This document shows positions 23,806-38,208 of a stretch of 64,000 nt of DNA, one piece after another (the stretch's first letter is position 1; the number at the start of each line of letters is the position of its first letter). Below the pieces are notes generated by a model. That model did no database searches. It saw only the letters and a list, made by a program, of their open reading frames with translations, and was not told the DNA's origin. The position numbers and the translations under genes were made by a program. The DNA lies in assembly GCA_020850535.1 (NCBI GenBank), contig JADZEM010000187.1, positions 62,001 to 126,000 on the forward strand, written 5' to 3'. Origin of the DNA: Chloroflexota bacterium. Its GTDB lineage: Bacteria > Chloroflexota > UBA6077 > JACCZL01.

Positions 23806-24199
23806 CGCGGCCGGGAGTATACGGCCACGTCTCAGGCGGTCGGGAGTGTCACCAGGGCGATTGCATGTTCACTGGTGTACCCGATGCATCATGGAACGGG
23901 CGGTCGGGGACTGAAGTCCCCGCCTACAGTCATGCCGTCGCTGCGCGACGGCCGTCGGGAACGGCAGGCACTGGTGCGACTGGAGCGTCGCGCAGCGACT
24001 GCAGGATCGTAGGCGGGGCTTTCAAGCCCCGACGCCGCCGCACGACGACATCAACGTGCAATCCCCCTGGGAGTGTCACCTAGTTGCTAGTAGGAACGGC
24101 GACAGGCAACCTATACTCGGTGTAACGACGCGGGCGTCAGCCTCACACTGCTGAGCCTGGACGGGAATTGCGCGGGCAGACGCCTGACAGGGAGCACGA
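23806..24199. other. Intergenic region carrying a MITE-like element
   Basis: 394 bases between divergent genes. Most of it is the 215-bp inverted-repeat element with its 12-bp flanking direct repeats (23842-24080). To its right, TATACT at 24112-24117 is a plausible -10 box for the phosphatase gene, but no good -35 is seen at normal spacing. Confidence 0.8.
23842..24080. mobile_element. MITE-like element with 12-bp flanking direct repeats
   Basis: The sequence GGGAGTGTCACC occurs at 23842-23853 and again at 24069-24080. The 215 bases between them begin AGGGCGATTGCATGTT and end with the complement of AGGGGGATTGCACGTT, so the ends are terminal inverted repeats (14 of 17 match). Inside are a second pair of imperfect arms of about 50 bases (from 23911 and to 24033), two 8-bp hairpins (CGGGGACT-GA-AGTCCCCG and CGGGGCTT-TC-AAGCCCCG) and no gene. 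The structure is that of a non-autonomous transposable element with target duplication. A shortened relative lies at 38094-38199. Confidence 0.8.
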
Positions 24200-37280: not shown

Positions 37281-37378
37281 CCTCACCCCCGACCCCACGT
37301 CGGCGCGGAGAGTGGGGGGAGTGAGGGCAACCGCACGATGACGGCATCGTGCAGCCTCGTCGGGGCGTGAAAGCCCCG
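37281..37378. terminator. Three successive hairpins between convergent genes
   Basis: 37281-37326 pairs CCTCAC...GTGAGG with C/G-rich inner arms; 37333-37352 is a perfect GCACGATG-ACGG-CATCGTGC; 37361-37378 is CGGGGC-GTGAAA-GCCCCG. The last resembles the hairpins of the MITE-like elements. They could end transcription of the patatin gene from one side and the lysE-type gene from the other. Confidence 0.55.
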
Positions 37379-37384
37379 CCTGCC

Positions 37385-38014: not shown

Positions 38015-38093
38015 GCAGACCTCCCGTCGTGGGCGCACCATGGATTGTAGGAGGCCACAGCGGGCGGATGTCTGTCCCCATGAGCGAGCATCC

Positions 38094-38199
38094 AGGGCAA
38101 TCGCTTGATGAAGGCGGCGCGCGTCGTGATCGGGGCTTGAAAGCCCCGACCGCCCGTTCCATGATGCGTTGGGAGCACCAGCGTACATGCGATCGCCCC
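38094..38199. mobile_element. Shortened copy of the MITE-like element
   Basis: In reverse orientation the 56 bases at its right end match the left end of the element at 23854-23909 at 48 positions, then share CGGGGCTTTCAAGCCCCGA with its right half. The ends are the same terminal inverted repeats (AGGGCAATCGC and, from the other side, GGGGCGATCGC). The central 100 bases of the longer copy are absent. The flanks show only a weak 8-of-12 direct match. It starts 80 bases upstream of the LysE-like start and ends 10 bases before the MFS stop. Confidence 0.75.
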
Positions 38200-38208
38200 G
38201 AGTGCGCG

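Follow-up and report, generated by a model that had tools for sequence, protein, structure and literature searches.

Insertion sequences of the ISAs1 family have ends of 14-22 bp that start with CAGGG, and are bordered by 10-bp repeats (PMC11946415). The description of ISArsp11 agrees on these hallmarks, CAGGG ends and 10-bp repeats (PMC6305408). A bacterial MITE can be mobilised by an insertion sequence that has the same ends, as is described for MITEPye1 and IS1182 elements (PMC11578231). GTAG-tagged REPs, which have been reported in Chloroflexi, contain a GTAG-tagged inverted stem-loop pair (PMC3733652).

The window analysed here, a stretch of 64,000 nucleotides from the draft genome of a Chloroflexota bacterium, contains a gene-free block, a non-autonomous MITE bordered by a duplicated target. 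The block and the ISAs1 insertion sequences share CAGGGCRATYGCAT ends and 10-bp direct repeats. However, those insertion sequences are about 1200-1340 bp long, whereas the MITE is 217 bp and lacks a transposase gene, and the interiors are unrelated. The block also resembles MITEPye1-type MITEs: it is short, gene-free and hairpin-forming, with target duplications and with terminal repeats common to a transposase-coding element (PMC11578231). Those MITEs are present in 1-3 copies, whereas the present one is found in hundreds; moreover, its driver family is very probably ISAs1, and it forms tandem pairs whose spacer has a fixed length of 10 bp. An ISAs1-driven MITE is not described in the literature searched. 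The elements make up a new family of MITEs, very probably driven by an already known family of insertion sequences. They are notable for high copy number and for traceable tandem units, and otherwise represent an ordinary kind of mobile repeat.

Borders and target duplication

The MITE spans positions 23853-24069 of the window (217 bp, plus strand; no gene), with CAGGG...CCCTG at its ends, and 217 bp is the majority length class among copies. The left terminal inverted repeat is CAGGGCGATTGCATGTT (23853-23869, plus strand); the right one (24053-24069) reads CAGGGGGATTGCACGTT on the minus strand. The copy sits in the gap between divergent PMT_2 and PP2C genes, and the open reading frames that overlap it are mechanical only, either entering from outside or short.

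An earlier reading of this DNA, made from the sequence alone, had described a 215-bp gene-free block with inverted-repeat ends and inner palindromes. The block is indeed gene-free, although its length is 217 bp. Its inner ends are inverted repeats of 18 nt with 89% complementarity, and the palindromes are present as arms of 48 nt (23903-23950 and 23986-24033).

The same reading saw a perfect 12-bp repeat at the borders and took it for the target duplication. The 12-mer is there: GGGAGTGTCACC is perfect at both 23842-23853 and 24069-24080. Nevertheless, the target duplication is 10 bp, namely GGAGTGTCAC, on the left at 23843-23852 and on the right at 24070-24079. Its sequence is read at the locus, and its length comes from a test on 48 copies.

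The length test used 48 elements with both ends, taken from 0.8 Mb of the same genome (sampled as 20-kb stretches), with the ends fixed as CAGGG...CCCTG. Direct repeats appeared only at length 10, where 13 copies had perfect repeats and 21 had at least 8/10 matches. Mean flank identity was 0.61 at this length versus about 0.26-0.32 at others; of the remaining lengths between 6 and 14, none gave a perfect direct repeat in any of the 48 copies. Widening the set to 98 end pairs, tandem-pair members among them, gave 34 with 8/10 matches or better, against a rate of 1.2% for flanks paired at random. Because the copies at C143:75882, C135:145305 and L016 have differing outer bases, the 10-bp length is proven, and the 48-copy test rules out a duplication of 12 bp. 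The two extra bases of the 12-mer are the terminal C and G of the MITE, which equal the host bases by coincidence. Insertion targets show at most a mild G...C preference at their outer positions, in a genome that is GC-rich.

Copies and empty sites

The genome searched is a draft of 7.65 Mb in 227 contigs, 96% complete. With the block as query, dozens of copies were found in this genome, mostly 86-96% identical, and essentially none in 40 relatives. Two motifs were also counted. When at most two mismatches are tolerated, the end motif CAGGGCGATTGCATGTT occurs 684 times in the genome (347 + 337), and its reversed control 0 times. The inner palindrome joined to GCCTAC occurs 771 times (388 + 383), and 0 times in the 40 relatives. 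Divided by two, the number of ends or of palindromes in a copy, these counts correspond to about 340-385 copies, so a MITE family has here reached about 1% of a genome. In viral contigs the inner palindrome was not found; the 17-mer end had two exact matches, each without the remainder of the element. A 49-bp fragment at 37333-37381 of the window resembles the MITE's right arm and has no ends.

To search for empty sites, the flanks of a copy were joined and then matched to sampled DNA of the same genome. The copy at C143:92248-92464 has an uninterrupted paralogue with a single copy of the target (C135:4991-5109, 87% over 119 bases), a second such paralogue (C13:96613-96706, 90% over 94 bases), and additional, weaker ones. 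The copy at C135:76508 has empty paralogues too; these show small gaps where the target lies. The repeat into which these copies had inserted is itself interspersed, of the CGCTCGGGATGAC type; a tandem pair at locus L039 occupies the homologous position of this repeat, with a target of its own, GGTGGGAAGT. The CGCTCGGGATGAC-type repeat is also seen in the window, where six matches (16724, 16962, 41907, 42002, 42037 and 42097) compare with 0.43 expected.

The sequence-only reading had proposed three checks: a genome search for the terminal repeats, an empty site in a relative, and a transposase with matching ends. All three gave a positive result. The first gave the 684 end motifs and the control of 0, and copies with duplications are present elsewhere in the genome, as the 13 perfect repeats attest. 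The second was answered within the same genome, by single-target paralogues of the site of another copy rather than by an orthologue of the window site. Intergenic DNA of the sister genera is not comparable with the window site, since their counterpart of the flanking glycosyltransferase has an identity of only about 50% and, in the loci examined, no PP2C gene beside it. The third check identified the ISAs1 element of a sister genus.

ISAs1 elements and the proposed mechanism

An exact end match in a genome of a sister genus (G001) led to an element of 1256 bp (L052:1501-2756) with the ends CAGGGCGATTGCATGTT and CAGGGCGATTGCATGAT. The first of these is identical to the left terminal repeat of the MITE over all 17 bases. 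The gene product of the element is an ISAs1 transposase: it scores 397 bits with NCBIfam transpos_ISAs1 (cut-off 70), and the Pfam domains DDE_Tnp_1_assoc and DDE_Tnp_1 are matched as well. This copy has no clear direct repeat, and its frame is apparently shifted near the end of the gene. Between its interior and that of the MITE no similarity is detectable; the ends alone match, at 17/17 and 16/17 bases. The block is what the sequence-only reading had supposed, a non-autonomous MITE-like transposon: short (217 bp) and non-coding, with terminal inverted repeats of 18 nt, dispersed in multiple copies with target-site duplications, and sharing its ends with an autonomous element.

Relatives of the G001 transposase occur in many other genomes. 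Among 80 loci that encode them, from many phyla, 30 elements have clear borders. All 30 have a 10-bp direct repeat (28/30 perfect), a result informative for length and not for frequency, since the elements were picked for having some repeat of 8-12 bp; their ends are CAGGGCRATYGCAT with variation. The MITE, with ends that start CAGGG and a 10-bp direct repeat, has both hallmarks of the family.

The ends, the duplications, the copies, the paralogous empty sites, and the existence of ISAs1 elements that agree in ends and duplication length argue strongly that a DDE transposase of the ISAs1 family mobilises the MITE in trans, a reading that we hold to be very probable. The act of trans-mobilisation itself would proceed as follows, judging from sequence. 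The ISAs1 transposase would recognise the CAGGGCGATTGCAT ends and link the 217-bp element to target DNA cut with a 10-bp stagger, whose repair would produce the 10-bp duplication. By this route the family would have multiplied to its present size in this lineage.

An intact ISAs1 gene in the same genome is usual for an element mobilised in trans, but not required. None was found in the 96% complete draft, which holds broken relics only, on contigs C136 and C187. The C136 relic is 77% identical over residues 2-225, then breaks, and resumes with residues 314-354 after an interruption of several kb; its ends, CAGGGGGATTGCATAAC and CAGGGCGATTGCATCAC, are related to those of the MITE. The other relic (C187:34933-35247) is truncated. 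Since the gene persists in this genome only as relics, the driver was presumably an ISAs1 copy that has now decayed in, or is missing from, the genome assembly. As read from translations at the C136 locus (L048, C136:18000-31000), the interruption includes an apparent group II intron reverse transcriptase, and a recombinase-like frame lies close to the relic.

Palindromes, rival explanations and tandem pairs

The two 48-nt arms form an inner inverted pair that makes up a GTAG REP-like cassette (23903-24033; compare PMC3733652). The left inner palindrome, GGGGACTGAAGTCCCC (23906-23921), is followed by GCCTAC; the right one, GGGGCTTTCAAGCCCC (24015-24030), is preceded by GTAGGC. Two size classes share the same ends: the 217-bp class, with two inverted inner palindromes, and a 108-bp class, with one. 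The window also contains a diverged 108-bp relative (38093-38200, equivalent to C187:100093-100200) with ISAs1-type ends, a single inner palindrome and an imperfect duplication (7/10). The 108-bp copy at C25:102-209 looks like the product of a loss (its halves are 96% and 93% identical); other 108-bp copies are too diverged to tell gain of the cassette from loss.

Copies might be kept as regulatory or RNA elements, hairpins between divergent genes, and not solely as mobile DNA. This is compatible with mobilisation by ISAs1, though improbable. The single-strand DNA fold of the MITE is very stable (z = -7.3), and the stem pairs of the palindrome covary among copies: pair 5/12 is A-T in 25, G-C in 15, C-G in 2 and other in 2, and pair 6/11 is C-G in 25, T-A in 17 and other in 2. 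The position of the window copy, between divergent genes, would also suit such a role. Yet palindromes can persist in mobile hairpins without any host function, no promoter- or terminator-like site was found, and the element is absent from the relatives (40 genomes). Moreover, no Rfam family scored above threshold in 16 loci. Known structured RNAs were likewise considered, with none at threshold; the miRNA matches, which fall far short of their gathering scores, are artefacts of long hairpins. Acido-Lenti-1 RNA (Rfam RF01687) shares two short hairpins and a similar linker, but positions 23904-23950 of the window score 26.3 bits, short of the gathering score of 37, and are not a member. The likeness raises the question of whether some Acido-Lenti-1 members are transposon hairpins.

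The cassette suggests a second alternative, which is very unlikely: a REP- or BIME-like repeat, spread through its GTAG palindromes by a REP-associated tyrosine (Y1) transposase, to which the outer repeats are incidental. The cassette, CCCCGCCTAC...GTAGGCGGGG, does resemble GTAG-tagged REPs in its inverted stem-loop pair (PMC3733652), and one near-complete cassette in the sample (C13:119276-119410) stands without ISAs1 ends. That solo cassette, however, could be a decayed MITE; its identity is 74%. The CAGGG ends, and not the palindromes, mark the exact place of the borders and of the 10-bp duplications. Unlike the published REPs, the present cassette lies inside ISAs1-type ends, in a genome with 0 matches to the Y1 (RAYT) transposase family PF01797, for which control genomes were positive. 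RAYT was rejected as driver on this last ground, and as an account of how the 217-bp unit spread, the REP/RAYT reading is largely refuted.

The sequence-only reading had pointed to IS4 relatives. ISAs1 and IS4-type transposases have the Pfam DDE_Tnp_1 domain in common yet are separate families; the link therefore holds for the domain and fails for IS4 itself, as it is ISAs1 that fits CAGGG ends with 10-bp repeats. IS4-group elements make duplications of about 10-12 bp. Another DDE-family transposase, of IS4 or IS231 type, is nonetheless disfavoured as the mover, and is the least probable reading of all: the genome has six PF01609 matches, but the examined loci (IS4/IS5/IS1182-like) other than the ISAs1 relic lack MITE ends, whereas ISAs1 elements agree with the MITE in their ends as well as in the 10-bp length.

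Trans-mobilisation by ISAs1 also offers an account of the tandem arrangement. Neighbouring end-to-end pairs in the sampled DNA have a spacer of exactly 10 bp in 26/32 cases, and 33 junctions with this spacer occur genome-wide. A few spacers recur at many loci (GTTCGTGACT, GTAGCAGCAT, GCGCTGCCCT and ACTGATTCGT), so the pairs have moved as units. The outer duplications of such pairs differ; for example, the perfect duplication is GTTCCGGGAG for the pair at C25:9090 and CTCACCCGCT for the one at C135:148479. Presumably, a pair arose once at a 10-bp target, through a second insertion into the duplication or through unequal exchange. On the simplest reading it would then have moved as a unit via its outermost ends, the transposase mobilising neighbours one target length (10 bp) apart as two-element units. 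The recurring spacers serve as natural barcodes, by which the descent of tandem pairs and the spread of tandem MITEs can be traced.

A more tentative proposal, possible but on balance doubtful, is that the 217-bp unit is a composite. A GTAG REP-like cassette would have been captured in a 108-bp ISAs1 MITE; this transposase-less REP would then have been spread by ISAs1 to hundreds of sites, with tandem units, each with a heritable 10-bp spacer, transposing in their own right.

Many contigs have a start or end that falls within or next to tandem MITE copies (for example C15, C18, C25, C59, C65, C98 and C220), and the family probably contributes to the assembly breaks.
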